A program made the position numbers and the translations under genes. Below the pieces are notes generated by a model. That model saw nothing but the letters and a program-made list of their open reading frames with translations, was not told where the DNA came from and did not search any database. Below, in pieces: positions 8,145-29,882 of a stretch of 64,000 bases of DNA. The stretch comes from Clostridiales bacterium (lineage in GTDB: Bacteria > Bacillota > Clostridia > Lachnospirales > Lachnospiraceae). How positions within the stretch are numbered: position 1 is the first letter of the stretch; each line of letters begins with the position of its first letter. The stretch spans positions 1 to 64,000 of the forward strand of contig JAMPHY010000002.1 in assembly GCA_023663185.1 (NCBI GenBank). The letters are read 5' to 3'.

Positions 8145-8170
8145 CAGGTTGAAGAAGAAAGGGGATTATT

Positions 8171-9391
8171 ATGGAACTATTTTTATTGGAACATAGAAAA
8201 CTATGGAAAAGGGCAAGTACAAAAATCAGCGTTTTTTTGTGTTTTTTGTATCTGGTAGTATTAGGGAGCATACTTTCTTTTCAGTACTTTAATTTTGGAA
8301 GCAGGGATGATTTTACTACAGGCGGCGGTCTTTTCGGAAACAATTTCGATGGGTATGACGCCATAAGGGACAGACAGGAGTATGCGCTTTTATTTGGGGG
8401 AGACCTGACTGACGAGATCTTGCAGCAAGTAGTACGGGATTATCAGAGAATGGCATCGGCCGATGCAAAAAGGGCGTGGGATTTAACTGATTGGATAATA
8501 ATCAATGACTGGCTGAGAACTTTGTGGCCTGAACTTCAGGAGACTGGAAGTTATATGGTAAGTATTGACTATTTTAAATCGGAAAAACTGACAGATTTTT
8601 ATGAAAGAAGGCAGCAGGCGATTGAAAAATATCTGGAAAACAATAATCAGACGGGAAAAGAAAAAGATTATTTATTGCAATTAAACGAAAAGGTAGAGAA
8701 ACCATTCCGTTACGGCTGGATACGGGGCTGGGAGCAGATTCTGAGCCGTACAGTCGATGTATCGAAAGACTCGATGGCAGTGTTTCTTGCTATTGTTTTG
8801 TCCACGCTGTTTGCAGGAGAATGGCATGACAATACAAGCCCATTGTTACTGACTACCAAAAACGGATTTAAAAAAATTGCTTTTGCTAAAATTGCTACCG
8901 GTTTGGCTTTTGCCGTGGAATTATTTGCAATGATTGCAGTCGGACAGATTGTGTCGCAGCTTTTCTTTATGGGAACAACAGGCTGGGATATGCCGGTCCA
9001 GATGATTAAGCAGATTGCGATTGCGCCTATGAATATGCTGCAGGGAGAAATCTATGAATATGGGTTTATGCTACATGGCATGGTCGGATATGCAGGACTT
9101 GTCATGCTTATATCTTCGGCTGTAAAAAGTAATGTGCTTGCCTTAATCCTTAGCCTTGCAGTTGTATATGTTCCAACTGTGATTGATCCGTATCTTCCTT
9201 TTGGATTACAGAAAGCGTTAAGCTTAATTCCATTAGTGGGAGACGGGACTGATATTTTTCGGACATATACGTTTAATATTTTAGGAAAATATATCTGGTC
9301 GCCATATTTACTGATTATCATTCCGGTGCTGATTGGCATTATGTGTATGCCGTTTGCCGTAAGGAGATGGTCGAGAAGGTTGAGGGTTTGA
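8171..9391 (+). CDS. ABC transporter permease (ABC-2 type)
   Basis: A 406-residue membrane protein with one N-terminal span (about 20-42), a large extracellular loop (about 45-195) and a cluster of about five spans in the C-terminal half. This is the layout of ABC-2 permeases that pair with stand-alone ATPases. AAGGGG lies just upstream of the ATG; a TTG 21 bases earlier is in frame but lacks a ribosome binding site. It closes the sigma/ABC operon. No terminator was seen before the toxin-antitoxin promoter at 9461. Confidence 0.85.
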   Translation: MELFLLEHRKLWKRASTKISVFLCFLYLVVLGSILSFQYFNFGSRDDFTTGGGLFGNNFDGYDAIRDRQEYALLFGGDLTDEILQQVVRDYQRMASADAKRAWDLTDWIIINDWLRTLWPELQETGSYMVSIDYFKSEKLTDFYERRQQAIEKYLENNNQTGKEKDYLLQLNEKVEKPFRYGWIRGWEQILSRTVDVSKDSMAVFLAIVLSTLFAGEWHDNTSPLLLTTKNGFKKIAFAKIATGLAFAVELFAMIAVGQIVSQLFFMGTTGWDMPVQMIKQIAIAPMNMLQGEIYEYGFMLHGMVGYAGLVMLISSAVKSNVLALILSLAVVYVPTVIDPYLPFGLQKALSLIPLVGDGTDIFRTYTFNILGKYIWSPYLLIIIPVLIGIMCMPFAVRRWSRRLRV

Positions 9392-9460
9392 TGTTCTGAT
9401 GTGGTTCTTTTGAGAAAATAATTTTGCAATTCAAATTCATGATTTAAAAGTAAGAAAAGT

Positions 9461-9489
9461 TTGACATAGGTTATCGTATATGATAACAT
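9461..9489 (+). promoter_or_regulatory. Toxin-antitoxin promoter with embedded palindrome
   Basis: TTGACA (9461-9466), a 17-bp spacer, then TAACAT (9484-9489). An imperfect palindrome with GTTATC and GATAAC arms occupies 9470-9487, covering the spacer and the first four bases of the -10. A repressor bound there would block RNA polymerase, as expected for autoregulation by the XRE-type antitoxin encoded second in this operon. No other regulator is nearby. Confidence 0.75.
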
Positions 9490-9504
9490 AAGAGCAAAAA
9501 GGAA

Positions 9505-9873
9505 GTGATAAAAATTTTTGAATTAGAATTTTATGTAAAAGAAAATGGTAAAATTCCGGTACAGGATTTTTTATATTCGCTCAATCCAAAATTAAGGGCA
9601 AAAGCATTTAGTGATATTGAATTGCTTAAGAAATTAGGCAGCGAGTTAAAAGAGCCGTATGTAAAGCCGATAAAAGGAAAGAATAATAAAGGATTGTATG
9701 AATTACGGATAAAATTTTCAAGCGATATAGCAAGGATATTTTATTTTACATATTATAGCAATAAATTTGTTTTGTTGTATGGTTTTATTAAAAAGACTAT
9801 GAAAACGCCTGAAAAAGAAATTGATAAGGTAAGAAAATATATGGAAGATTATAAAAGGAGGGCTGATTCATGA
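9505..9873 (+). CDS. RelE/HigB-like toxin (Gp49-like, DUF891)
   Basis: A small basic protein of about 122 residues of the phage-derived Gp49/HigB type, normally a ribosome-dependent mRNA interferase. The family core is visible in KPIKGKNNKGLYELRIKF and in the strand with IARIFYFTYY. The frame lacks an in-frame ATG. The GTG at 9505 is the formal start, although AGGAAGTGAT resembles the Shine-Dalgarno itself, so a weaker start such as ATT at 9514 is possible. Weak toxin initiation against a strong antitoxin site would fit this type of system. It overlaps the antitoxin gene by 4 nt (ATGA). Confidence 0.85.
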   Translation: MIKIFELEFYVKENGKIPVQDFLYSLNPKLRAKAFSDIELLKKLGSELKEPYVKPIKGKNNKGLYELRIKFSSDIARIFYFTYYSNKFVLLYGFIKKTMKTPEKEIDKVRKYMEDYKRRADS

Positions 9874-11164: not shown

Positions 11165-11443
11165 TTGATATTTGAATGGGACGAGGAAAAGAATCAAAGC
11201 AACCAAAGAAAACATGGGATTTCATTTGAAACGGCGGCTTATGTATTTGAAGATGAAAATTATATAGAAATGTATGATTTTGAGCATAGTATAGATGAAG
11301 ACAGATATATTGCAATAGGTTGTGTGGGCGATGTGTTGTTTGTTGTATTTACCGAGAGAAAAGAAAATATCAGGTTAATTTCTGCCAGATTAGCAAATGA
11401 GATAGAAAGGAGGCTTTATTATGACCAAAACATTCATTATTGA
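11165..11443 (+). CDS. BrnT family toxin
   Basis: A 92-residue protein of the BrnT (DUF497) family, RelE-fold ribonuclease toxins. The diagnostic N-terminus EWDEEKNQSNQRKHGISFE is intact, as are the central FVVFTERKENIRLISAR strand and the basic helix with the Ala-x-x-x-Glu-Arg-Arg segment near the end. Initiation appears to be TTG at 11165, with AAGGAG 14 bases upstream, suggesting weak translation. The BrnA-like antitoxin starts inside its 3' end (23-nt overlap). Confidence 0.9.
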   Translation: MIFEWDEEKNQSNQRKHGISFETAAYVFEDENYIEMYDFEHSIDEDRYIAIGCVGDVLFVVFTERKENIRLISARLANEIERRLYYDQNIHY

Positions 11444-13076: not shown

Positions 13077-13105
13077 TTGACTTTTAAATCTTACAGATGT
13101 AATAT
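13077..13105 (+). promoter_or_regulatory. Promoter with BlaI-type operator (lipoprotein/class D operon)
   Basis: TTGACT (13077-13082), 17 bp, TAATAT (13100-13105). The dyad TTACAGATGTAA at 13091-13102 overlaps the spacer and the -10. It matches the TACA-N2-TGTA core of BlaI/MecI operators. Twenty bases (13085-13104) are identical to those at the blaI promoter (19906-19925). Repression by the BlaI encoded at 19505-19891 is the simplest reading. Confidence 0.82.
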
Positions 13106-13186
13106 TTAAAGCACATAAATATTTTTGCTCTCAAATATTACAACAGTAATATTTCAAACAAGTATTCAATTATAATAGGATAAATT

Positions 13187-14500
13187 ATGAAAAAAAGGGA
13201 AAGCAAGAGTTTTTTAATAACAATAATAGCGTTAATAATATTTATATTAACTGGCTGCAGTGATAAATCGCCAAATGCTAAATTACCAGATGTTAAATCA
13301 CCGGATGTTAAATCGTCAGAACTATCAAATATTGAAATAACGACAGATAATGCGATATCTTCTAATGCCGAAAGAGATTGTATCATGATAGAAGGTATAG
13401 AAACAGCTTACAATGATAGTGAAGAAGATGAAACAGAGGCAGATTTATGGTTTCTTCCGCAAGCAGAATACTGTCTGATAACCGAAGCAGAGAAAAGTGA
13501 ATTAAACGCTATCGCATTGACAGCGGCAGAACAGACGAAAGAAGTATATAAAGATATAGAGCTGACAGGTGATTTCTCTTATGGTTCTAATATTAAAGAG
13601 TTTACAAGTAAGCAGCGTGAAACCGTTGTTGCACATCTTGGGAAGGCAGGGTATGTCAGCGTTACGGAAGACTGTAATATGGAAAATTACGTGGAAATCG
13701 AAAGCTTTTATAATGCCTATTTAGAAAAACGTGATACAATGGTAACTGTATTTAATGTAAATCGTGATGGACTAATCGGAGCTGTCACTTTTATACATAG
13801 AAACAATGAGCTACAAACATATTATGTGGGAATTGGCTGGCAGGAAGGCGGCGTACCGGAGATTAAGTATACCCTAGTTAGTGATGTGGCAGAAATTAAG
13901 TTGACGGATAAAGGATATTTCATTTATGCCTATGAGGACGTAATAGACCATTCCAGCTTGCGCCAATACTGGAGGATTAAACCGCTTTCTGATAAATGCA
14001 GGGAATTGACAGTTAAATATGTATATGGATTGAGCTATGTCAATTATAATGTTCTTGTGACAAATTGGGACAGCAGTAATGTAGAAGATATTCTTATGCC
14101 CTGTATGTTTGAAGATATATATCGGATATATACCGGAGAAAACTTAAAGAGCGAAAATGGGAGAATATCTGCAGAAACGTATGAAAAAATAATGACTACA
14201 TATTTTCCCGTGTCAATAGAGCAATTAAGGGAAAAGTGTGAATATGATGAGAATAGCAACAGCTATAAATATGAAATGATATTTGCGCATCAGTATCCGC
14301 CTTTTGGAGAAGTTGTTGATTATACGGAAAATTCAGACGGAACAATTACATTATATGTAGACGGAGTTTGGGCGGATTACAATTCAGATTATGCCTTTAC
14401 AAATAAGATTGTGGTACAGCCATTTGCTGATGGCACATTCAGGTATTTATCTAATTCGATAGAACAAAAGGAAATGGAAATACCTATGATAGAAAAATGA
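13187..14500 (+). CDS. Lipoprotein of unknown function, first gene of the BlaI-controlled operon
   Basis: A 437-residue exported lipoprotein with a type II signal peptide (hydrophobic core LITIIALIIFILTG, Cys24). A short tandem LPDV/SPDV/KSS repeat follows the acylation site. The mature part is acidic and rich in Tyr, Glu and Asp, with no enzymatic motif I recognise. It is the first gene after the promoter and BlaI-type operator at 13077-13105, and three more exported-protein genes follow with short gaps, ending in the class D-like gene. A role in the cell-envelope response to beta-lactams is inferred from this arrangement only. Confidence 0.8.
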   Translation: MKKRESKSFLITIIALIIFILTGCSDKSPNAKLPDVKSPDVKSSELSNIEITTDNAISSNAERDCIMIEGIETAYNDSEEDETEADLWFLPQAEYCLITEAEKSELNAIALTAAEQTKEVYKDIELTGDFSYGSNIKEFTSKQRETVVAHLGKAGYVSVTEDCNMENYVEIESFYNAYLEKRDTMVTVFNVNRDGLIGAVTFIHRNNELQTYYVGIGWQEGGVPEIKYTLVSDVAEIKLTDKGYFIYAYEDVIDHSSLRQYWRIKPLSDKCRELTVKYVYGLSYVNYNVLVTNWDSSNVEDILMPCMFEDIYRIYTGENLKSENGRISAETYEKIMTTYFPVSIEQLREKCEYDENSNSYKYEMIFAHQYPPFGEVVDYTENSDGTITLYVDGVWADYNSDYAFTNKIVVQPFADGTFRYLSNSIEQKEMEIPMIEK

Positions 14501-14516
14501 AAGGATAGATATTAAA

Positions 14517-15311
14517 ATGCTAAGGAGAAAATTTATTTTATTGATTAGCACGCTGTCATGTGTAACCTTGATTTGTGCTTGCGGAAAAGAGGAAGAAAAG
14601 CAGTATGTCGTACTGGAAAATGATGAAAGTATGACGGACAAAGATGTATCAATAGCTCCTGAAGGAGATGATACGTCAAAAATCAATGAGAGCTGGGAAG
14701 ATGCTTATAAGGAAATTATTCGTAATATGGATAAATATTTATCAGATTTATATATTACGCGAAACAACTCTGAAAGTGAAGCGGATTCTGTTATTGGCTT
14801 TATCGGGATACATGATTTCAACAATGATAATATTCCTGAATTGATTATCGGAGATTTGGTATCTGTGGGAGTGTTTACTTTTGAGGGTGGTATAGTAAAA
14901 AGAATTGCAGATTTATATGAACCGGAGGACTGGCGTTATATTAGCAGCATGTACTATAAAGATAATACGGTTGTGCTTGTAAATAGTGGTTCAGATGGAA
15001 GTTGTTATGTTTGTTTTACCTATGATGAAAGAGACTATATATATGATGGGAAAGAATATGTAATAGGAATTTATGATGAATATAATCACATGGGTGCAGC
15101 TATCATTAACGGAACTGTGGTTACTGAGAAAGAATTTCAAGAGCGATTTCATTTAACTGAATTATTGGATAATCGTTATGATACTGTGATTCCACGTAGT
15201 AGAATGAAAAAGGATAATGGAATAATTACGGATTTAGCAATAAATGTTTTTGAGAAAGATTATGAATATATCCCCATAGAAGATTTAGATTTTAAGGATA
15301 TGGAATGGTGA
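14517..15311 (+). CDS. Lipoprotein with FG-GAP-like acidic loop, unknown function
   Basis: A 264-residue lipoprotein. The signal peptide ends in a lipobox-like LICAC with Cys21 or Cys22 region. Residues around 95-130 contain GFIGIHDFNNDNIPELIIGD, the D-x-N-x-D motif preceding a hydrophobic strand seen in FG-GAP/VCBS-like calcium loops. The same kind of loop occurs in the lipoproteins at 1848, 2854 and in the next gene. It lies 16 bp after the previous lipoprotein gene, consistent with one transcript under the BlaI-type operator. Function is unknown. Confidence 0.8.
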   Translation: MLRRKFILLISTLSCVTLICACGKEEEKQYVVLENDESMTDKDVSIAPEGDDTSKINESWEDAYKEIIRNMDKYLSDLYITRNNSESEADSVIGFIGIHDFNNDNIPELIIGDLVSVGVFTFEGGIVKRIADLYEPEDWRYISSMYYKDNTVVLVNSGSDGSCYVCFTYDERDYIYDGKEYVIGIYDEYNHMGAAIINGTVVTEKEFQERFHLTELLDNRYDTVIPRSRMKKDNGIITDLAINVFEKDYEYIPIEDLDFKDMEW

Positions 15312-15371
15312 TGTAACGGGATATTTAAATATACCAAAATAGTAGGAAGGATTAGCGGAGGAAAACAATCA

Positions 15372-16763
15372 ATGTACTATATGAAAAAGATAGGTAAAAT
15401 TGCATTGGGAATTGCAGTTTCAATATGTATTATATTCGCTGTGTTTTGGGGAAGATTCACCTATGTATCAGAATATAAAGTAACAACCGTAGATACTTCC
15501 GTTTCTCCTGATGGAAAGTATAAGCTGATATTACAGGCTGTCGGGCAAGCAGATTGGCCGTTTGGTTCTGCTTCAGGGAGACTGCTGCTTTATGAAGGTG
15601 ATAACAAAATATCCAAAGCAGATTTTGAGCTGTTTGATGACGGCGGGTGTATACGCAGCAGTATATGGAACGTTACATGGCATGAGGACTGTGTGGAAGT
15701 TATCCTGTCTGGCGACGAACAGTTCGATGAAAAGGTTATCTTGTACTTTGACGGGAAGAAAGAAATAAAACAATTAACAGATTGGAAAAGAGATGAGGAA
15801 ATAGAGAATAAAGAAGAAATACAACAGATTAATCCATCGGCAGATGATGTGATTGAATCAGAGCAGCCAGAGCAAACAGATGAGTCTAGACTGGTATCGG
15901 AGGAGTTATCAGGTAATCAGGTGCAGAATAGACTGGACGAGGAAAGAATCATAGAGGAACAGTCTTTCCAAGTAGAACTAAATGACTGGGGTGAAGTGAG
16001 ATTTGTATCATATAAACCCGATCGTGCGGAAGGAGACATGTATAGTGATGTGACTTTTTATCTGTTAAAAGATAACGAGATTTTGTATCAGTTCCCATTA
16101 TGTGAAAGCAGCGGCAGTGGTTATTATTGGGATATGAAGTTTGTTATGTTTATGGATACAAACGCTGATGGGAAAGAGGACATAGTCATAGGAGCGGAGT
16201 ATATGACGGGCGCAGGACCACAAGGCGCGGTGCCGCATACACAAGTGCGAATCTATGAAGATTATGGAGACTATTTTATCTACAATGGGGAACTCAGCGA
16301 TAAAATAAATGATTTTCTTCCGTGGGAGAGTAATGTTCTGGCGAAGGATGTAAAAAGACTTATTCAACTGGAAAATGGGAACGAGCCGCTTACGAATTAT
16401 GAAAGCTATACGGGGACATGGAGAGTAAGCGTCGGATATATTAAGGCGTATGAAGAACCCTACCCCACGACAAGAAAGGATCTGACCTGTAGCATCAGTA
16501 ATGGGAATGAATTTTGCGGAACTCTTTTTATAGAACAAGAAACAACGGAGCGGATTGCATCGGTAGAGAATATAGTAGGCACAATTCAAAATGGCGAACT
16601 GTTTTACGATTTTACTGATGACGGCTGGGGTGGAATGGGAACGCTTCATATTGTGTTCCTTCCCAATCAGATTAATGTGGAAGTGCTGAACTATCAGATG
16701 GCGGAAGAAAATGTAATCGGATATGGTATATCGGGAAATTATGAGATGTCTGTGAGAGAGTGA
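15372..16763 (+). CDS. Membrane-anchored two-domain exported protein, unknown function
   Basis: A 463-residue protein with an N-terminal membrane anchor (about residues 8-27) and no lipobox Cys. Domain one (about 35-135) begins VDTSVSPDGKYKLILQA, as in small exported DUF5412-like domains. A Glu/Gln-rich linker (about 140-195) follows. Domain two (about 200-463) has the loop FMDTNADGKEDIVIGAEY, again FG-GAP-like. GGAGG lies 10 bases before the ATG at 15372; Met4 is an alternative start. It is the third gene of the BlaI-type operon, 3 bp before the class D-like gene. Confidence 0.78.
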   Translation: MYYMKKIGKIALGIAVSICIIFAVFWGRFTYVSEYKVTTVDTSVSPDGKYKLILQAVGQADWPFGSASGRLLLYEGDNKISKADFELFDDGGCIRSSIWNVTWHEDCVEVILSGDEQFDEKVILYFDGKKEIKQLTDWKRDEEIENKEEIQQINPSADDVIESEQPEQTDESRLVSEELSGNQVQNRLDEERIIEEQSFQVELNDWGEVRFVSYKPDRAEGDMYSDVTFYLLKDNEILYQFPLCESSGSGYYWDMKFVMFMDTNADGKEDIVIGAEYMTGAGPQGAVPHTQVRIYEDYGDYFIYNGELSDKINDFLPWESNVLAKDVKRLIQLENGNEPLTNYESYTGTWRVSVGYIKAYEEPYPTTRKDLTCSISNGNEFCGTLFIEQETTERIASVENIVGTIQNGELFYDFTDDGWGGMGTLHIVFLPNQINVEVLNYQMAEENVIGYGISGNYEMSVRE

Positions 16764-16766
16764 GAT

Positions 16767-17684
16767 ATGAAAAAATTTCAAAGTATAATTATAGTGCTCT
16801 TAGCTGTTATTGTTTCAGGGTGTTCAAATTCAAATATTGAGCAGCAGGAAGATGGCAGCATTGTAATAGAACAACAAACAGAAATAACAAATCAAAACGT
16901 GCATAGTACAGGCATGCCTAAAGAAAATGAAATATCCGTTGTAATTGATAATATTGTTGACTATTCTGAATACTTTCAGGGAATTAGCGGCTGTGTGGTA
17001 ATATATGATGAAGCAGCAAATGCCTATTCTTTTTATAATAAAGAAAAATGTGCAACAGAAGTTTCGCCATTATCAACATTCAAGATTATATCTGCATTGG
17101 CAGGCTTGGAAAATAATGTGCTTGAAAATGAAGACTCTACAATGGAATATAGTGGTATGCAATATTCCATCGACACATGGAATGCAGATTTAACATTAAA
17201 GGAAGCGTTTGAGACTTCGTGCATATGGTATTTTCGGCAGGTCGTGGATATGGTTGGAGAAGAAAATATTAGTACAATACTGGAAGAAATACAATATGGA
17301 AATTGCGATATATCCGAATGGAACGGAAGCGGAATCAACCCATTGTCTGAACTTAATGGATTTTGGTTAGATTCATCATTAAAAATCTCGCCCAAACAGC
17401 AAGTCGATACGCTAAATTATATTTTTAGCATGGAGAATAATTTTAGTGCAGAAAATCTGGAAAAATTGAAAAATTTGATGTATGTAACAGAACTAGATAA
17501 TGTTTTTTTATATGGCAAAACTGGTTCGGGAACAGACGGCAAAGCGTGGTTTGTTGGTTTTATTGAAAAAAGCGGAAATAAGACCTATTTTGCAGTTTAT
17601 CTTGATGATGGGCAAAATAAAGAAATGGTATCAGGAAATAAGGCGAAAGAAATAGCAATTAGTATCATATTAAGTATTAATTAA
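16767..17684 (+). CDS. Class D beta-lactamase-like lipoprotein
   Basis: A 305-residue protein with a lipobox (IVSGC, Cys19) and a class D penicillin-recognising domain. Active-site motifs are in order: S103-T-F-K106 (nucleophile and the Lys that is carbamylated in this class), S151-C-I153 (the S-x-V position), Y177-G-N179 and K251-T-G253. Spacing matches OXA-type enzymes. The BlaR1 sensor domain encoded next door has S-V-N at the second motif. In BlaR1 that Asn is linked to loss of Lys carbamylation and to no turnover, so Ile here favours a working hydrolase. It is last in the BlaI-type operon and ends 10 bp from the convergent blaR1. Membrane anchoring would keep it at the cell surface. Confidence 0.85.
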   Translation: MKKFQSIIIVLLAVIVSGCSNSNIEQQEDGSIVIEQQTEITNQNVHSTGMPKENEISVVIDNIVDYSEYFQGISGCVVIYDEAANAYSFYNKEKCATEVSPLSTFKIISALAGLENNVLENEDSTMEYSGMQYSIDTWNADLTLKEAFETSCIWYFRQVVDMVGEENISTILEEIQYGNCDISEWNGSGINPLSELNGFWLDSSLKISPKQQVDTLNYIFSMENNFSAENLEKLKNLMYVTELDNVFLYGKTGSGTDGKAWFVGFIEKSGNKTYFAVYLDDGQNKEMVSGNKAKEIAISIILSIN

Positions 17685-17694
17685 AAAATGGCAT

Positions 17695-19503
17695 TTACCC
17701 GATATTTTTATTCCAAACATTCAATTCCGACAAGATAGACTTTGTTATCTCGGCAGCATTGCTTCCGCTAGCGTTAGCATCATTTTGTATGTTAGTGGCA
17801 AAGAAATAAGTATTCCCTTCACTTTCAATGAAACCGATAAACCAACCGTTTACGTCCTGCCCGTTTATGTTTCCAGTTCCGGTCTTACCGTAAAAATTGT
17901 TGCCTTCAGATGATAAGAGGCAGATAGATTCTTTTACTGCATTTATGTTTTCTATAGCAAATTGAAAACGGTTATTGTAGAAGTCTGTTAAAAGCTCTAC
18001 TTGTTCTACTGGAGAGATTTTTAACGCTCCTTGCAGCCAGTAAGAAGAAATGTCTGAACCTATGGTTTCATTTCCGTATCCAATCTTATTAATATATCTT
18101 TTTATTGCAGAAGCACCGAGCTTTTTGTCTATCTCCTGAAAATACCAGTTGACAGAAAATTCCATTGCGGAATACAGGTTATGGTCGGTATTCCATATTT
18201 CAAAAGGATATTCCGTACCATCCCATGCCATGAAGGAATCATTTGGATTAATAATACCTTCTTCCAAGCCAAACAGCGCATCATATATTTTGTAGGTAGA
18301 GTTTGGCGATGTTCTTAAAGTGGCGCGGTCAATATTATAAATCTGCCATGTATTGTCATTTTGGCTGTATAGGACGAAGCTGCCGTCATAGCCGCTAAAG
18401 TATGCAGATAAATCAATGACGGAAATATTTTCCGATTTCATATCCCATTGATAGCGGTCTTTATCTGCGGCATAAGTTGACAGCGCCGGAGTAATTCCCC
18501 AAAGGATAACGGCAATGACGCTAAAAGCGATACAGCCTTTTAAAGTTTTCCATACAGAAGGTTTTTTATAAGAGGAAATATTGATAATCCGTCTTTTCAT
18601 CTGTCTCATGCTTCCGCTGATTCCTGCGGTAAAAGGGAATGGGGTAAGGGATACTTTCTGGGCAAAGTTAAGCAGCGTGTTTCCATAATCTGCATAATTT
18701 TCTTCTGAAAGCATTTTCAGTACAGAAGTATCGCAGGCGATTTCTTTATCATTACGCATTTCTTTCAGCGCATACCATACCAAAGGATTGAACCAATAAA
18801 GCACGCCGATAATGTTCATCAGATAGCTTGTAAGGGCGTCTTTATGTTTATAGTGTTGTAACTCATGCAATAGTATATAGCGCATATCCACCGCATTGAA
18901 ATCTGATATCAGGTGGATTGGCAGATAAATACAAGGTCTGAATAATCCTACGATAATGGGGGATTTCAAAAAAGCGGTGCTGTAAATGGGAATCAATTTT
19001 TTTATTTTCATCTCGTATAAACAGTCGTTGTATAATTTGCGGACTTTTTCATTCTGCAAAGGAAGGGCAGATTTCTTTATAGCGTTTAGACGGATATTTG
19101 ATTTTATAATAAGTATAATCATTGCAAAGATGCCGACCAACCATATTACGCATAGAAGCAATCCGATAATGGCAGGGGATTCGTCGGTAACAGAGAGGGC
19201 AAAATCATTTAATTGCTTTGAAGCACCGGAGATATCCAAATTTCCTGTAATTCCCGTAATGTTATCTGCATTTGATGAGGAGAGGTTTCTTAATGTATCA
19301 ATCCATGAGAAAATATGGCTAAATCCAAGCGGACGAAAAGGAATAAACGGAACTGTAAGAAGTCCAAGAAACAGAAACCATAAATTAAACTGCATACGGC
19401 TGCTTAAATAGTTTTTAAATACACATTTTATTATAAGAAGTATGGCTGTGACAGCGCAGATAAGAATATTACATAAGAAAAAGCGTATCCCAAAATCTGC
19501 CAT
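17695..19503 (-). CDS. blaR1: BlaR1-like beta-lactam sensor/metalloprotease
   Basis: A 602-residue transmembrane sensor. The N-terminal M56 domain has several membrane spans and the zinc-protease motif H213-E-L-Q-H217, followed by the EIACD segment near residue 255. A Met/Arg/Lys-rich stretch near 298-307 (SMRQMKRRI) resembles the autocleavage region. After the last span (about 325-345) the extracellular sensor has S402-T-Y-K405, S450-V-N452, Y476-G-N478 and K540-T-G542. Acylation by a beta-lactam would activate the protease and relieve BlaI repression. It starts one base after the blaI stop codon, so the two are coupled. Confidence 0.93.
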   Translation of the reverse strand: MADFGIRFFLCNILICAVTAILLIIKCVFKNYLSSRMQFNLWFLFLGLLTVPFIPFRPLGFSHIFSWIDTLRNLSSSNADNITGITGNLDISGASKQLNDFALSVTDESPAIIGLLLCVIWLVGIFAMIILIIKSNIRLNAIKKSALPLQNEKVRKLYNDCLYEMKIKKLIPIYSTAFLKSPIIVGLFRPCIYLPIHLISDFNAVDMRYILLHELQHYKHKDALTSYLMNIIGVLYWFNPLVWYALKEMRNDKEIACDTSVLKMLSEENYADYGNTLLNFAQKVSLTPFPFTAGISGSMRQMKRRIINISSYKKPSVWKTLKGCIAFSVIAVILWGITPALSTYAADKDRYQWDMKSENISVIDLSAYFSGYDGSFVLYSQNDNTWQIYNIDRATLRTSPNSTYKIYDALFGLEEGIINPNDSFMAWDGTEYPFEIWNTDHNLYSAMEFSVNWYFQEIDKKLGASAIKRYINKIGYGNETIGSDISSYWLQGALKISPVEQVELLTDFYNNRFQFAIENINAVKESICLLSSEGNNFYGKTGTGNINGQDVNGWFIGFIESEGNTYFFATNIQNDANASGSNAAEITKSILSELNVWNKNIG

Positions 19504-19504
19504 A

Positions 19505-19891
19505 TCAATTTCTCCCCTTGTCGTTTCCCTTAGTGAGAAGTGAACGCAATGTATCTATTTCCGCTTCGGTAAGTTTATCTTCCGCAAGATAAGCAGAAAG
19601 CATGGCGGTAATATCGCCGGCATAGTAACGCTTAAGAAAGGCGCGGCTTTCCTGCCCGATGTACTCTTTTTCTTCTATCAGGGGAGTGTAGACAAACATT
19701 CGACTTTGCTTTTCGTAGGCAAGCGCACCTTTTGTAACCAGACGCTTGATTAGCGTCTGTATTGTTTTAGGCTGCCAGTTGGTAGTTTTGGTTAAACGGT
19801 CGGTTATTTCGTTGGTGCTGATAGGCGCATATTGCCATACAATCTTCATAACTTCAAACTCAGCTTCAGAAATTTGTGGTAAACCTGCCAT
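19505..19891 (-). CDS. blaI: BlaI/MecI-family transcriptional repressor
   Basis: A 128-residue winged-helix repressor. The N-terminus MAGLPQISEAEFEVMKIVWQ and the segment ending in the recognition helix (TKTTNWQPKTIQTLIKRLVTKG) are classic for BlaI/MecI. The C-terminal part would dimerise. The open frame extends upstream, but the ATG at 19891 has AGAGGTGAT 8 bases before it and matches the family start. Its own promoter carries a BlaI-type operator, so it is probably autoregulated, and the same site controls the class D operon at 13187-17684. Confidence 0.94.
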   Translation of the reverse strand: MAGLPQISEAEFEVMKIVWQYAPISTNEITDRLTKTTNWQPKTIQTLIKRLVTKGALAYEKQSRMFVYTPLIEEKEYIGQESRAFLKRYYAGDITAMLSAYLAEDKLTEAEIDTLRSLLTKGNDKGRN

Positions 19892-19911
19892 TTGTAAATC
19901 ACCTCTAAATC

Positions 19912-19923
19912 TTACAGATGTAA
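19912..19923. promoter_or_regulatory. BlaI-type operator at the blaI promoter
   Basis: TTACAGATGTAA, a dyad with TTACA and TGTAA arms around two bases. It lies just downstream of the blaI -10 on the minus strand, near the expected transcription start. The surrounding 20 bases (19906-19925) are identical to 13085-13104 at the other promoter. Confidence 0.85.
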
Positions 19924-19930
19924 TAAATGT

Positions 19931-19959
19931 ATTATAAATATTATTAATGGATAAGTCAA
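19931..19959 (-). promoter_or_regulatory. blaI-blaR1 promoter
   Basis: On the minus strand: TTGACT (19959-19954), 17 bp, then a consensus TATAAT (19936-19931), about 40 bases ahead of the blaI ATG. The operator at 19912-19923 lies between the -10 and the ribosome binding site. Confidence 0.8.
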
Positions 19960-20062
19960 TATAGTACAAAAAAATATCAAAAATTAAGAGGTTAATTTTA
20001 AAGGTTTGCGGTACAATTATGTCGTATTATTACAAAGAAAAATTATGAAAGGATTATTTTCA

Positions 20063-22951
20063 ATGAAAATTATCGGTCACAAAATTATTAATGTAGAACA
20101 AAATGAAAAGGATTATTCCTTTTTTACCAACAATGGAGTAGAGCTTATAATCAGCTATTTATCTGCAAAAACTGTGCGTATAGCAGTACGGTTTGATAAG
20201 AACGAGGAATTTGACAGGTCCTATGCCATTGAGGAAATTCATTATGAAAACGTTGACACTTCCTTTGCAGACAGTGGCGAATTTTACATAATTGGCTCTA
20301 ATTGCATTTCAGTAAAAATTTACAAAATGGATTCAAAAATTGAATATATAAGAAATGGAAAACTTATTACATCGGTCAAGGAAATCGGTAAAGATAATGA
20401 ACAATTTTACTGTATTCACAATATGGCTCCAAATGAGCATTTTTATGGTCTTGGGGAGGATAATGACGCATACCTTGGCAATATGGACAGACGGGGAAAA
20501 AAACGTGAGCTGGTAACAGGTCAGCGTATAAATATCGGTCATGTCACAGCCGATATTCCTGTTTCTTTTTTTATGAGTACGGGTGAGAATACTCCATATG
20601 GTATTTTTGTAGATAGTAGTTACCGTATAAATTTTGACATGGGTAAAAACAATTCTGCTGAATATTCATGGTCGGTGGATGGCGGCAGCTTTGTATATTA
20701 TCTTTTTGCGGGCAACAATTTTGGTGAGATATTAAATGAATACACAAATCTTACAGGGAAACCTTCTTTGCCACCGCTGTGGGCTTTAGGATATATTCAG
20801 TGTAGATGTTCCTACTGTTGTTGGGACGAAATTGATGAGATCATTGATACGCTTAAAGAAAAGAGAGTTCCTTTAGACTGTATTGTTTTTGACTTTGATT
20901 GGGCAGAGAATTTTCATAATTTTAAGTGGAATAAACGTTGGAATGGTATGAGCCCTCAAAAAATATTAGAATACCAAAAAGACGGTCTGCATTTTATGGT
21001 ATCTAATTCGGGACCCATGATAAGAAAAGACAGTGATATTTTTCAAAGTGCACTTGATGCAGGGATACTTGCCAAAGATAAAGAAGGGAATACTGTTACC
21101 TGCGGACATTATGGCGGCGAGCTTATGGATTTTACTAATCCCAATATGAAAAACTGGATAAAAGGAAAGCTTGAAAATCTTCTTGATGAAGGTGTTGAAA
21201 GTTGGTGGCTTGATCTTACTGAGCCTGAGGGGGATCCTGACGGAACACAGTATTATGATGGTGATAAAGCCAAAGTTCATAATATTTTTTCTCTTATGAA
21301 CAGCAAGCTTTATAACGAGATTACACTTGAACATAATTCAGGGAAACGCCCGTTTATTCTCACAAGGACAGGAACGGCAGGGATTCAAAAATACAATGTT
21401 GCCATATGGTCAGGAGATGTTTTTTCTGATTATAAAACCTTTGCCGCTCATATTCCTGAAGCATTGAACACAACAATGTCAGGAATACCATTATGGACGA
21501 GCGATAGCGGCGGATTTATGTCATCTACAAGCAACAGCGCCGATAGTCGAAATATTTACAAGAATGACGTTGCTGCGCATGCAGCTTTGTATGAACGCTG
21601 GCTTCAATTTGCGGCGTTTTGTCCCATTATGCGTGTTCATCATGCAGGGCAGTCCTCTCCGTTTATTTTTGGCGAAATGTTGACAAACAGTATTGCTCAT
21701 TATGTCCGGCTGCGATACAGACTTATTCCGTATATTTATTCTTATAGCTTTTTTGCACATATAACTGGTGAACCTATCATGCGAGCGTTGGTTTTTGATT
21801 ATATGAATGATAAAAATGTACTTGACATAAAGGATGAATTTTTATTCGGAAAAGAAATTCTCGTTGCACCTGTTATAGAGGAAAAAGCTGTAGAAAGAAC
21901 TGTGTATTTTCCCGAAGGCGAATGGTATGACTGGGATTACGGCTATAAATATGAAGGTGGGAAAAACCATGTAGTTTATGCTCCCCAGAACAGAATTCCT
22001 GTATTTGTAAAAGGCGATGCTATTATTCCTATGGCGGAACAAACTTATAATACTAAGGATATTGACCATCAAAAAATCAATCTAATTATTTATCCTAAAG
22101 CTGCATGTAGCTTTAAGCTTTTTAACGATGATGGAATTTCTTATGGATTTGAGGAAAACAGATATACGGAAACGTTTATTGAATGTGTTGAGGATATTGG
22201 CAACAATACAAAGATCAATATTACAAATTCAAATCTTTTATATTCGCCGAAGGAATATTTATTTGAAATCCATGTCAATGCGATACCTGTTAAGGTTACA
22301 TACGGCGATACCGAGCTTACAAATTACGGTTATAAAAATTTGCTTAAAAAGACGGAACGCGGCTGGTATTATGATGATTTCAACAATGTGCTTTATATTG
22401 AAATCAAGGACAATGCAGAAAAGCTTGATGAATTGGTTATATTGCATGGTGCTGTTGTGACTAAGCCTATAGAAAATGCGGACATCGATGCCGTGACGGG
22501 ACAAATTCCATTTATTCTTCCCCCCGCGTCTGTTCCTTGCCGAATAAATTGCGTAAATTTTGACAGGGGCGGAGAAGGTGTGGCTTTTCATAAGATGGAA
22601 ATAACCGCAAATGAATTATACAGAACTGACGGCGTTGAAATAGAGCTTTCAGATGATACAGGAGCAGGACATAATGTAAAAAATCATAAAAAATCCGAGT
22701 GGCTGGAATATACGATAAATGTAAGTGAGGGTGGTCGTTATCATATAGAGCTTAGGGCTCAGGGGACAGGAACAATCGGTGCAGATTTTGACATGCAGAC
22801 CTCTTTACCACCGGTAACAGTAGATGAAGGCAGATGGAACACAATAGATATTGGAACGGTAATGCTTTCTATGGGTGAACAGGTTTTGAGAATTCTTGTA
22901 TATGACGGATGTTTTAGGTTAAATTGGATAGAATTTGTTAAAGAATATTAG
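20063..22951 (+). CDS. Glycoside hydrolase family 31 with C-terminal CBM
   Basis: A 962-residue alpha-glycosidase (alpha-glucosidase or alpha-xylosidase type). An N-terminal beta-sandwich (about 1-225) precedes the GH31 barrel. The nucleophile is D384 in WWLDLTEP and the acid/base is D452 in WSGDVFSDY. After the C-terminal beta domains comes a CBM6/35-like module (about 815-962) ending in VYDGCFRLNWIEF. No signal peptide is seen, so it is probably cytoplasmic. I start at the ATG at 20063, which has AAAGGA 9 bases upstream; the frame is open from 20006. It heads a cluster with an AraC regulator, a GH36-like enzyme and a sugar ABC importer. Confidence 0.92.
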   Translation: MKIIGHKIINVEQNEKDYSFFTNNGVELIISYLSAKTVRIAVRFDKNEEFDRSYAIEEIHYENVDTSFADSGEFYIIGSNCISVKIYKMDSKIEYIRNGKLITSVKEIGKDNEQFYCIHNMAPNEHFYGLGEDNDAYLGNMDRRGKKRELVTGQRINIGHVTADIPVSFFMSTGENTPYGIFVDSSYRINFDMGKNNSAEYSWSVDGGSFVYYLFAGNNFGEILNEYTNLTGKPSLPPLWALGYIQCRCSYCCWDEIDEIIDTLKEKRVPLDCIVFDFDWAENFHNFKWNKRWNGMSPQKILEYQKDGLHFMVSNSGPMIRKDSDIFQSALDAGILAKDKEGNTVTCGHYGGELMDFTNPNMKNWIKGKLENLLDEGVESWWLDLTEPEGDPDGTQYYDGDKAKVHNIFSLMNSKLYNEITLEHNSGKRPFILTRTGTAGIQKYNVAIWSGDVFSDYKTFAAHIPEALNTTMSGIPLWTSDSGGFMSSTSNSADSRNIYKNDVAAHAALYERWLQFAAFCPIMRVHHAGQSSPFIFGEMLTNSIAHYVRLRYRLIPYIYSYSFFAHITGEPIMRALVFDYMNDKNVLDIKDEFLFGKEILVAPVIEEKAVERTVYFPEGEWYDWDYGYKYEGGKNHVVYAPQNRIPVFVKGDAIIPMAEQTYNTKDIDHQKINLIIYPKAACSFKLFNDDGISYGFEENRYTETFIECVEDIGNNTKINITNSNLLYSPKEYLFEIHVNAIPVKVTYGDTELTNYGYKNLLKKTERGWYYDDFNNVLYIEIKDNAEKLDELVILHGAVVTKPIENADIDAVTGQIPFILPPASVPCRINCVNFDRGGEGVAFHKMEITANELYRTDGVEIELSDDTGAGHNVKNHKKSEWLEYTINVSEGGRYHIELRAQGTGTIGADFDMQTSLPPVTVDEGRWNTIDIGTVMLSMGEQVLRILVYDGCFRLNWIEFVKEY

Positions 22952-22998
22952 GGCATGATGTCTTCTAGCTTCATAATATCATAAAAAGGAGTCGGAAA

Positions 22999-23838
22999 AT
23001 GAAATCAGAGGTTATCAATCTGACATTACCAGATTACGAAAAAGTTACGGGAGTGGGATATTTGTATCAAAAGAGTGTGAAGGAGACTTACCAGCTTCAT
23101 ACACACGATTTCTATGAAATTTTTTATATTATAAAGGGAAAGGCTATTCATGAGATTAATTACGAAAAGCAGGTACTAAGGCAGGGTATGTTGGTGTTTA
23201 TCAGACCGGAGGACGTGCATCAATATACGTTCATTAATAATTATGATTTTGAAATCCTTTCTATAGGAATAGAGTGTGAAGTGGTGGAATATGTATGTGA
23301 TTATCTGGAGATTAGTCTAATGCAGATGCACCGTTCAAAGCTTCCGCCGATGATTATGCAGGATGGGGCACATAGTTGGAATATGAAGGACAAGCTTATG
23401 ATGATTAATACAAAGGAGAGAGGTGTAGAGAGGCGAAAATATTTTTTATCGATTTTTCCAGAAATCATATATCAGCTTTATTATAATTCAAAGTATCAGA
23501 ATGAAATAGTTATTCCAGTCTGGCTTTCTGACATAATAGAAGAAATGGAAAAAAAGGATAATTTTCTTTTGGGATTATCCAGAATGATCGAATTATCCAA
23601 TGTATCACAAGAACATTTGACAAGAGAATTCAAGCGCTTTTTAGGAATAACACCTACAGAATTTATTAATATCAAAAGGGTTAATTACGGTGTTGAATTG
23701 TTATTACAAAGAAAATACAGCATTTTGGAGACCTGTTACATGTGTGGATTTAATAATTTGAGTTACTTTTATAAAGTTTTTGATAAAACATATCATTGTA
23801 CACCAAAGGAGTTTTTGAAGTTTCATCTTAAATCTTGA
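22999..23838 (+). CDS. AraC family transcriptional regulator
   Basis: A 279-residue regulator with an N-terminal cupin-like sensing domain (about 15-150). Its metal/ligand-type motif is LHTHDFYEIFYIIKGKAIHE, followed by FIRPEDVHQYTF. Two helix-turn-helix units make up the C-terminal AraC domain (about 180-279), with VSQEHLTREFKRFLGITPTE and CGFNNLSYFYKVF. AAAAAGGAG precedes the ATG. Lying between two glycosidase genes and ahead of a sugar importer, it probably activates the cluster in response to an imported oligosaccharide. Confidence 0.92.
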   Translation: MKSEVINLTLPDYEKVTGVGYLYQKSVKETYQLHTHDFYEIFYIIKGKAIHEINYEKQVLRQGMLVFIRPEDVHQYTFINNYDFEILSIGIECEVVEYVCDYLEISLMQMHRSKLPPMIMQDGAHSWNMKDKLMMINTKERGVERRKYFLSIFPEIIYQLYYNSKYQNEIVIPVWLSDIIEEMEKKDNFLLGLSRMIELSNVSQEHLTREFKRFLGITPTEFINIKRVNYGVELLLQRKYSILETCYMCGFNNLSYFYKVFDKTYHCTPKEFLKFHLKS

Positions 23839-23851
23839 AAGGAGCGTTTCT

Positions 23852-25738
23852 ATGAGTTTTATTTCATTTGATAAAATTAATTTGATTAGAGGAAAAAGCA
23901 ACCCGATTTCTCTTGATAATGCCGAAGTTTTTCTTTCTTTATTTAATTGCAATGTTTATTGGGTAATACCTAAAGTCTGTACCAATTATGCAGAAATTCC
24001 CGACAACACGCAGTACCTTTTGTGGAAAAAAGATGACGGCAGCTACGGCATAATGCTGCCCCTTGTAGATGGAGATATTAAGGCGGATTTGCAAGGTGAT
24101 GAAAACGGAATTTGTGTAATATTTAAAGGCGCAGTCGAAGGCAGCGAACCCGATATGGCAGAACTTTTATACATTGACAGCGGCATTGATCCATATGAAT
24201 TAAGTTATAGAGCAATTTCCGAAATATCAAAACGCTTGGGAAGCTTTAAAATGCGTAACGAAAAGAAAATCCCCAAATTTCTTGATTACATAGGTTGGTG
24301 TACTTGGGATGCTTTTTACGGCTCAGTAGACGCGGAAAAAATTATTATGGGCTTAGAATCATTTAAAAAAGCAAATTTTCCACTAGGATACATAATACTA
24401 GATGACGGCGCTTGGGACTCCTATTATGACTATCTTAACCAAGTACGGCTGTGTACGGAGAAATTTCCGAATGGTATTAAATCTCTGGTAACGCTTGCGA
24501 AAGAAAAATACAACTTAAAGCTATTCGGAATATGGCATTGTTTTGAGGGGTATTGGGGAGGCATAAATCCTGACGCTGAACTTGCAAAAAGATATTCTTA
24601 CATAATAAACAATGCTAATATCAGACCTTGGGAAGAAATAGAACGTTGTCAGGACATTTATTTAATTTCGCCGGATGAAGTTGAAAAATTTTATGAAGAA
24701 TTGCATTCATACATTTATGAAATGGGTATAGATATGGTAAAAATAGATGGTCAGTCAACAATGGATCTTTTCACCGACGGAAAACTTGGTATGGCAAGTT
24801 CTATGAAAAAATATCAACAAGCTATGCAAAAAACAGCGGAAAAATATTTTGATTCAATGGTGATACATTGTATGTCCAACAGCAACGATGTGGCATACAA
24901 TATGATGACTACAAATTGCTGGCGAAATAGCTATGATTATGCACCGAAAGATTTAAAAATGCAAAAAGAACATATTTACATAAATGCCGCTAATGCTATG
25001 TGGTCGTCAACGTTTTCCGTTCCTGATTGGGATATGTTTCAGACACATTCCGCTGGTGCGGAGATTCACGCGGCGGCAAGGGCAATAAGCGGTGGTCCTG
25101 TATATGTCTGCGATTATCCCGATAAGCAAAATTTTGATATTTTAAATTCGCTTATTACTTCTGAAGGAAAGGTGTTAAGATGTCAGAACCCTGCGCTGCT
25201 GACCGAGGATTGTATTTTCTCGGATTGCAGAACAGAGAAAAAGTTGATGAAAATTTTTAACAAGAACGGGGAAATCGGTATAATCGGGATTTTTTATTGC
25301 AATGAACAGAACGAAGTCATCAGCGGAAAGTTTTCTTCATTTGATATCAAGGGACTTGAGGGCGAAAAATTTGCTGTATATTATTTTACAAAAAAGAAAG
25401 TTGACGTTGTTTCTAAAGGTGAAAGCCTTAATATTTCTTTAGGTGATGGAGAGTTTGAATTGGTAACTTTTTCCCCGATTGACAACGGCATAGCGCCTTT
25501 CGGACTTGTAGATAAATACAATTCCTCTGCGGCAATTATTTCTGCCAAATGGGAAAACGAAAAATACTGTACAAAATTATCTGACGGCGGGACATCTGTG
25601 TTTTATTGTGAAAATCAGCCATTTAATGTACTTTGCAATAACAAAAAAGCGAACTATTCATATGATAAAAAAAGTTGTTTGTTGTCGATAAATTCTGATA
25701 AATATGGGGAAAATGAAATAAATGTTATTTTTAATTAA
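23852..25738 (+). CDS. Sip1-related alpha-galactosidase (GH36-like)
   Basis: A 628-residue enzyme of the raffinose-synthase/Sip1 branch of GH36. The barrel entry is FLDYIGWCTWDAFYGSVD, with LDDGAWDSYYDY following. The predicted nucleophile is D299 in MVKIDGQSTMDLF. A beta-rich C-terminal region (about 470-628) completes the family layout. No signal peptide is seen, so cytoplasmic processing of an imported alpha-galactoside-like sugar is likely. It starts 14 bp after the AraC gene behind AAAGGAG. Bacterial substrates for this branch are poorly defined, so the alpha-galactosidase name is tentative. Confidence 0.85.
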   Translation: MSFISFDKINLIRGKSNPISLDNAEVFLSLFNCNVYWVIPKVCTNYAEIPDNTQYLLWKKDDGSYGIMLPLVDGDIKADLQGDENGICVIFKGAVEGSEPDMAELLYIDSGIDPYELSYRAISEISKRLGSFKMRNEKKIPKFLDYIGWCTWDAFYGSVDAEKIIMGLESFKKANFPLGYIILDDGAWDSYYDYLNQVRLCTEKFPNGIKSLVTLAKEKYNLKLFGIWHCFEGYWGGINPDAELAKRYSYIINNANIRPWEEIERCQDIYLISPDEVEKFYEELHSYIYEMGIDMVKIDGQSTMDLFTDGKLGMASSMKKYQQAMQKTAEKYFDSMVIHCMSNSNDVAYNMMTTNCWRNSYDYAPKDLKMQKEHIYINAANAMWSSTFSVPDWDMFQTHSAGAEIHAAARAISGGPVYVCDYPDKQNFDILNSLITSEGKVLRCQNPALLTEDCIFSDCRTEKKLMKIFNKNGEIGIIGIFYCNEQNEVISGKFSSFDIKGLEGEKFAVYYFTKKKVDVVSKGESLNISLGDGEFELVTFSPIDNGIAPFGLVDKYNSSAAIISAKWENEKYCTKLSDGGTSVFYCENQPFNVLCNNKKANYSYDKKSCLLSINSDKYGENEINVIFN

Positions 25739-29875: not shown

Positions 29876-29882
29876 CATTTAG

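Follow-up and report, generated by a model that had tools for sequence, protein, structure and literature searches.

The stretch analysed here (the window) comprises 64,000 nucleotides, positions 1 to 64,000 of contig JAMPHY010000002.1 of a Clostridiales bacterium of the family Lachnospiraceae, which is probably a gut dweller and whose genome is available as 3,828,298 bases (3.83 Mb) in 54 contigs, 94.8% complete. The locus under study, at 13077-19959, contains a four-gene operon, led by a lipoprotein gene of the family DUF6070 and ending in a gene resembling class D beta-lactamases, which converges with the genes of the penicillinase repressor BlaI and the penicillin sensor BlaR1. Its features are listed below; lipoboxes, the anchor of O3 and the identity of open reading frames (ORFs) at operator-like sites elsewhere in the genome were read by eye from the sequence.

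13077-13105, plus strand: promoter of the target operon, TTGACT-17-TAATAT.
13086-13107, unstranded: operator O1a, AAATCTTACAGATGTAATATTT, covering the spacer and the -10; 20 of 22 bases as in the OP1 oligonucleotide of Bacillus licheniformis.
13133-13154, unstranded: operator-like site O1b, AAATATTACAACAGTAATATTT, lying 47 bp past O1a, within the leader of the target operon; 17 of 22 bases as in OP1.
13187-14500, plus strand: O1, DUF6070 (PF19546) lipoprotein of 437 amino acids, lipobox LTGC; Pfam E 3.4e-64.
14517-15311, plus strand: O2, predicted lipoprotein of 264 amino acids, lipobox ICAC; without a Pfam family at E 0.01.
15372-16763, plus strand: O3, 463 amino acids, anchored in the membrane by its N-terminus; the FG-GAP match is weak and does not reach the Pfam cut-off.
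16767-17684, plus strand: O4, class D beta-lactamase-like lipoprotein, lipobox VSGC, nearest to the CDD family; motifs STFK, SCI, YGN, WLDSSLKIS and KTG.
17695-19503, minus strand: blaR1, 602 amino acids, M56 metalloprotease (HELQH) and penicillin sensor (STYK, SVN, YGN, KTG).
19505-19891, minus strand: blaI, penicillinase repressor of 128 amino acids with a Penicillinase_R domain and no cysteine.
19907-19928, unstranded: operator of blaI-blaR1, AAATCTTACAGATGTAATAAAT, placed after the -10 and before the ribosome-binding site; agrees with OP1 at 19 of 22 bases.
19931-19959, minus strand: promoter of blaI-blaR1, TTGACT-17-TATAAT (19959-19931).

The longest sequence shared by the two promoter regions is a stretch of 20 bases, TAAATCTTACAGATGTAATA, at 13085-13104 and 19906-19925, which cannot be extended; a previous sequence-only reading had reported it exactly so. 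The same reading had placed the first copy over the -10 and the second after it, and both placements are accurate, since the operator covers the spacer and -10 of the first promoter and lies directly downstream of the -10 of the second; its wording that each promoter carries the operator is therefore apt for the first and loose for the second. The 10 bp that it gave between the stop codons of the convergent operons are likewise correct (the stops end at 17684 on the plus strand and 17695 on the minus strand). Both operators that it set at the flanks of the locus are present, and the picture was incomplete in that it missed O1b. Its assignment to the BlaI/MecI operator class is borne out by the similarity of all three sites to OP1, the gel-shift oligonucleotide used with BlaI of B. 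licheniformis, a species for which three operators are described (PMC3305447). Close to the promoters of the window, the palindrome TTACANNTGTAA was found with conserved flanks, the core of O1b having one mismatch.

The operators are unique in their own genome. The 18-mer AATCTTACAGATGTAATA occurs twice in 3.83 Mb against approximately 0.0006 copies expected under a single-base model at the GC content of the window, and its next-best site, with 2 mismatches, is within an ORF. A genome-wide motif scan, which the sequence-only reading had proposed, was performed with the 22-bp pattern AAATMTTACANNWGTAAKATTT, picked after the sites had been seen, allowing up to 3 mismatches. Only the three sites of the window, accounting for six of the 22 rows returned, had 0-2 mismatches; the remaining 16 rows were all at 3 mismatches, close to the 15 rows of the reversed-pattern control, and the one outlier resembling an operator (C3:24953) falls within an ORF. 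Candidates for a wider regulon in this genome were discarded: four other exact TTACANNTGTAA sites are inside ORFs (C9, C44, C52) or, on C8, precede an apparent toxin-antitoxin gene; the two-mismatch site of C3 sits inside an apparent sigma-factor ORF.

Both regulatory proteins are well supported by profile and residue comparisons. BlaR1 clears the cut-off of the BlaR1 equivalog (400) with 679.8 bits, and its residues 12-598 align with solved BlaR1 structures, which we take to be those of Staphylococcus aureus; across 46 sequences compared, window included, 13 of 14 active-site positions are invariant and the last, N452, is retained in 44. BlaI reaches 114 bits against Penicillinase_R (cut-off 22.6) and shares 42 of 78 residues with 1p6r, presumably the DNA-binding domain of B. 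licheniformis BlaI, while in the helix WxPKTIQT the residues W39, P41 and TIQT (43-46) are invariant in the same 46 sequences and K42 is found in 45. Copper control of the CopY type was considered and rejected, as BlaI scores 92.9 bits against a CopY/TcrY cut-off of 121.95 and, having no cysteine, has no C-terminal metal motif.

In the target operon, O1 matches the DUF6070 Pfam profile with 217.6 bits (cut-off 27); a profile search of solved structures with DUF6070 returned a single match, at E 0.24, from which no fold was assigned. A domain search places O4 among penicillin-binding/class D proteins. The active-site motifs of O4, which we take to be those of class D enzymes, are located at positions 103 (STFK), 151 (SCI), 177 (YGN), 200 (W) and 251 (KTG), and its best solved-structure match is 6ue2 (E 8.4e-69), presumably a structure of the CDD type. 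Its best NCBIfam match is blaCDD, with 251 bits against a cut-off of 600, and it is thus named CDD-like rather than CDD; O4 would be a class D beta-lactamase able to hydrolyse beta-lactams. Given the lipoboxes of O1, O2 and O4 and the anchor of O3, the four products should lie outside the membrane.

A panel of 145 genomes of relatives was used to determine whether operator, switch and DUF6070 occur together (loci and genomes are cited below by L and G numbers). Allowing one mismatch, the 18-mer was found at 18 sites in 14/145 genomes, compared with one site for the reversed pattern; read by eye, 12 of these sites are at blaI or before an operon containing DUF6070 and six are elsewhere. DUF6070 is present in 33/145 genomes and BlaR1-like proteins (E<=1e-40) in 23/145, reduced to 20 after removal of G071, G113 and G122, which match one part of BlaR1 only. 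The test covered 34 DUF6070 clusters (33 loci and the window, scored positive), less two at contig edges, and five smaller or second matches (in G015, G033, G038, G048 and G051) were listed outside it. An operator with up to 2 mismatches lies upstream of 13/14 clusters in genomes with a sensor BlaR1 versus 2/18 in the others. The sole miss in the former group, L109, has two operators before a penicillin-binding protein (PBP) gene which precedes its DUF6070 genes. Four operator-bearing clusters (G008:C9, G022:C6, G043:C7, G070:C42) are not linked to BlaR1, which their genomes do possess, and there BlaI may act in trans; G030 and G069 have an operator at a DUF6070 cluster, and no sensor BlaR1 was found in either genome. 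A strong operator-like site was also observed in L103 at 7351 (G035:C52:39348), before an apparent histidyl-tRNA synthetase gene and far from BlaR1, which may be functional or due to chance.

A second set consisted of loci from named genomes, obtained by a scan with O1-type sequences of which the best 80 of 136 matches were kept; they are mostly Lachnospiraceae records, organisms are named as in the records, and DUF6070, having been the query, is present in all 80 by selection. These loci hold 83 DUF6070 clusters, 79 of them with upstream sequence. When the region ahead of the lead gene was considered, the operator was upstream in 34/37 clusters with a convergent BlaR1 or BlaI versus 16/42 without, and permuted palindromes in 100 trials matched 0/79; as the loci are related, the p-values of this and the preceding cluster test overstate independence. 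As for the three misses, in two (L186, L193) operators lie beyond the interval that was tested, and the third, L183, shows sites with 3 mismatches. An earlier test, restricted to the region upstream of the first DUF6070 gene, had given a weak association (25/41 versus 14/40) because many operons start with a PBP gene, and the lead-gene test was used in its place. The operator often appears as a tandem pair before the DUF6070 operons of relatives. The extension of BlaI control to the whole operon, which the sequence-only reading had advanced as inference, gains support from these comparisons; its proposal of a closed regulon applies to the genome of the window and fails in some relatives, where the operator is also found on unlinked DUF6070 loci.

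The gene content of these loci is variable. For the counts, loci with a BlaR1 of at least 45% identity on the opposite strand were considered, which amount to 39 of the 80. A PBP gene (about 700 residues if complete) stands before the DUF6070 genes in 12 of these 39 and in 4/41 of the others. The four PBPs scanned from named loci and that of L100 contain MecA_N, PBP-dimer and transpeptidase domains, and those of L166, L152 and L100 are nearest to enterococcal PBP4(5) and PBP2a, under the curated cut-offs; the genome of the window yielded no MecA_N protein. O3-like genes are found in 17 of the 39 loci, O2-like genes in four and a class D gene in one (L160, on the other strand), and among the loci annotated only the window combines a class D gene and DUF6070 in one operon. 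In relatives, operator-like cores with at most one mismatch are near class D genes (L072, L073, L074), PBP genes with dimer and transpeptidase domains (L081, L113, L114), or both (L070); the BlaI/BlaR1 of the genome of L074 are on another contig. In L072 (G102:C7), positions 8163-9746 encode a protein of 527 amino acids, adjoining BlaI-BlaR1, in which a metallo-beta-lactamase-superfamily domain (PF00753) is joined to a class D-like transpeptidase domain, possibly forming a double-domain hydrolase.

Taken as a whole, the locus is very probably a self-contained BlaI/BlaR1 switch governing two convergent operons. A BlaI dimer would repress blaI-blaR1 through one operator and the operon O1-O2-O3-O4 through two, one over the -10 and one in the leader. 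A beta-lactam would acylate the outward-facing sensor of BlaR1 and activate its metalloprotease, leading to the inactivation of BlaI, upon which both operons would be transcribed. The cell would then make four products outside the membrane, namely a membrane-anchored class D beta-lactamase, two further lipoproteins (one of them DUF6070) and an anchored protein. The analysis itself establishes the sequences, the matches of the operators, their uniqueness in the genome and the linkage across relatives, whereas BlaI binding, induction by beta-lactams, drug hydrolysis and the role of DUF6070 are inferred.

Several observations weigh against it. O4 is below the curated class D cut-off as well (188 versus 250). 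An operator-like core is close before the class D gene or its operon in only 3/23 loci with a class D ORF (L070, L073, L074; read by eye), and the four closest homologues (63-76% identical; L088-L091) have none close ahead. For 16/42 DUF6070 clusters the operator is present with neither BlaR1 nor BlaI in the fetched stretch, contig ends or action in trans being the only explanations offered. The genome has 12 further BlaI-family genes (13 PF03965 genes in all), and cross-regulation by them is possible; of these 12 loci, six were examined (L115-L120), and in each an M56-type ORF adjoins the BlaI-like gene. Blautia producta DSM 2950 has blaI and blaR1 and no ampicillin resistance, according to PMC8146736, a comparison which concerns blaI/blaR1 and not the whole cassette. 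The cleavage bond of BlaI is given as N101-F102 in PMC3305447, and at the aligned pair BlaI of the window has A-Y (among the 46 sequences, A in 37 and Y in 39); this limits the mechanism, not the family membership, and inactivation may proceed by a step other than N101-F102 cleavage, perhaps at another bond. Lastly, in the related CopY family the 10-base core TACANNTGTA alone over-predicts and does not predict binding (PMC7253601), hence the weight given here to flanks and comparison.

A first alternative, which we regard as unlikely, is that the switch is real and responds to wall damage or to a natural wall-derived molecule, the operon being one of envelope stress to which the beta-lactamase was a late addition. 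DUF6070 often accompanies the switch, whereas the union with class D in one operon is peculiar to the window among annotated loci and the class D genes of relatives are mostly away from the operator. DUF6070 is also near other BlaI/M56 pairs which match only the protease part of BlaR1 (L121, L129, L133, L141), which suggests a wider tie between M56 signalling and this family, and a wall-peptide coactivator has been proposed for B. licheniformis BlaI (PMC3305447). Against this, BlaR1 of the window retains a full penicillin sensor, and the outputs near the operator in relatives include PBP2a/PBP5-like enzymes and class D proteins, which in known systems have drug-resistance functions.

That the main repressor is another of the 13 BlaI/CopY-family members, and not the adjacent BlaI, is improbable. 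Their number and the fact that BlaI, MecI and CopY have the TACANNTGTA core in common (PMC7253601) favour the idea, but no other BlaI-family gene of the genome bears the operator, given that only the three window sites have up to 2 mismatches; moreover, the adjacent BlaI is not CopY-like in cysteines or score, and the operator co-occurs with this type of BlaR1 across genomes. Slightly more improbable still is that regulation is confined to blaI-blaR1 and that the operon promoter retains an inherited, non-functional site. Nothing found in the sequences speaks for it: that promoter has two sites, pairs of sites precede the operons of many relatives, and the operator is also found on unlinked DUF6070 genes. 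A chance match has a negligible probability, for although a core-only search with TTACAGATGTAA at 2 mismatches was noisy (14 matches versus 8.1 expected in the window) and was replaced by the 22-bp palindrome, the expectation for the exact 18-mer, the permuted palindromes and the comparative test all speak strongly against it.

The BlaI/BlaR1-controlled cassette appears to be mobile. Pairwise comparison of 11 loci revealed long common stretches, many at 90-98% nucleotide identity and some at 77-83% (mainly versus L160), for instance 4,587 bp at 98.1% between Roseburia inulinivorans and Clostridium fessum and 6,459 bp at 90.7% between Blautia glucerasea and R. inulinivorans; the 90-98% stretches suggest recent transfer between genera. 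A genome of the same genus, G007 (L105, G007:C33:16000-34000), is 92-97% identical to the left flank of the window in several blocks. There the output operon is absent, a large deletion affects the BlaR1 sensor region and a short gap interrupts blaI, while the blaI operator is kept; similarity on the right side starts again only around window position 29878. In the G007 genome as a whole, neither DUF6070 nor a separate class D gene turned up, a single case which fits a regulator not being kept once its target is lost.

Tandem DUF6070 genes are often a single ORF of about 750-1250 residues (L125, L127, L131, L195 and others). One of the 80 named loci, L192, is in a record titled Sporofaciens musculi plasmid unnamed and has the DUF6070-BlaR1-BlaI arrangement; a search of PLSDB with DUF6070 (O1) gave no match. 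The family returned one weak partial match in a phage collection (MT836875.1) and one locus in viral contigs (L229), sequences which may be mis-assigned bacterial DNA. Elsewhere in the window, a BrnT-family toxin gene (PF04365) lies at 11165-11443, and the region adjoining the locus, 20006-25738, is probably a separate cluster for sugar use, with genes for a GH31 glycosidase, a regulator of the AraC type and a protein of the raffinose-synthase family. Scanning the window against Rfam and for tRNAs gave no matches.

The logic of sensor, repressor and operator is textbook knowledge; what is new is its target, an operon that opens with a DUF6070 lipoprotein gene and closes with one for a class D enzyme. 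In Clostridioides difficile, blaX-blaCDD is reportedly accompanied by blaRI, with the class D CDD enzyme under the control of BlaRI. O4 resembles this enzyme in being nearest to the CDD family, though under its cut-off; to our knowledge that system includes no DUF6070, O2 or O3, and BlaX is a different membrane protein. The staphylococcal mecA/mecI-mecR1 system is likewise built on a sensor-repressor pair, and mecD of Macrococcus is related. Some loci of relatives resemble it in starting with a MecA_N (PBP2a/PBP5-like) transpeptidase, unlike the genome of the window; we know of no DUF6070 lipoprotein that is part of mec. The target of bla in B. licheniformis is a class A enzyme, and the four-gene operon found here differs from it. 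The B. licheniformis divergon (blaP / blaI-blaR1, OP1-OP3) is alike in BlaI, BlaR1, three operators and a nearly identical OP1, but its operons diverge with the three operators between them (PMC3305447), whereas here they converge and the promoters are about 6.9 kb apart. The CopY/CopR copper repressors share the fold family and the operator core (PMC7253601) and differ from the BlaI described here, which has no cysteine, is below the CopY cut-off and stands beside BlaR1.

No description of a link between DUF6070 and BlaI/BlaR1, or of this arrangement, was found in the open-access literature, and the link is apparently undescribed. A broader proposal, tentative and in our judgement somewhat short of an even chance, is that DUF6070 lipoproteins, often tandem or fused, would be widespread and as yet unnamed beta-lactam-inducible protection factors of Lachnospiraceae, working with or replacing a PBP2a/PBP5-like transpeptidase or a class D enzyme, controlled by BlaI in cis and in trans, and moving between genera as a cassette. 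DUF6070, a family without known function, thereby gains a first testable role, in the response to beta-lactams or wall stress. The switch adjoins DUF6070 in many Lachnospiraceae records, with a PBP2a/PBP5-like enzyme ahead in some and the class D enzyme behind in the window, a pattern indicative of a regulated, mobile cassette for responding to beta-lactams in records that bear the names of common gut commensals, among them Roseburia and Blautia.

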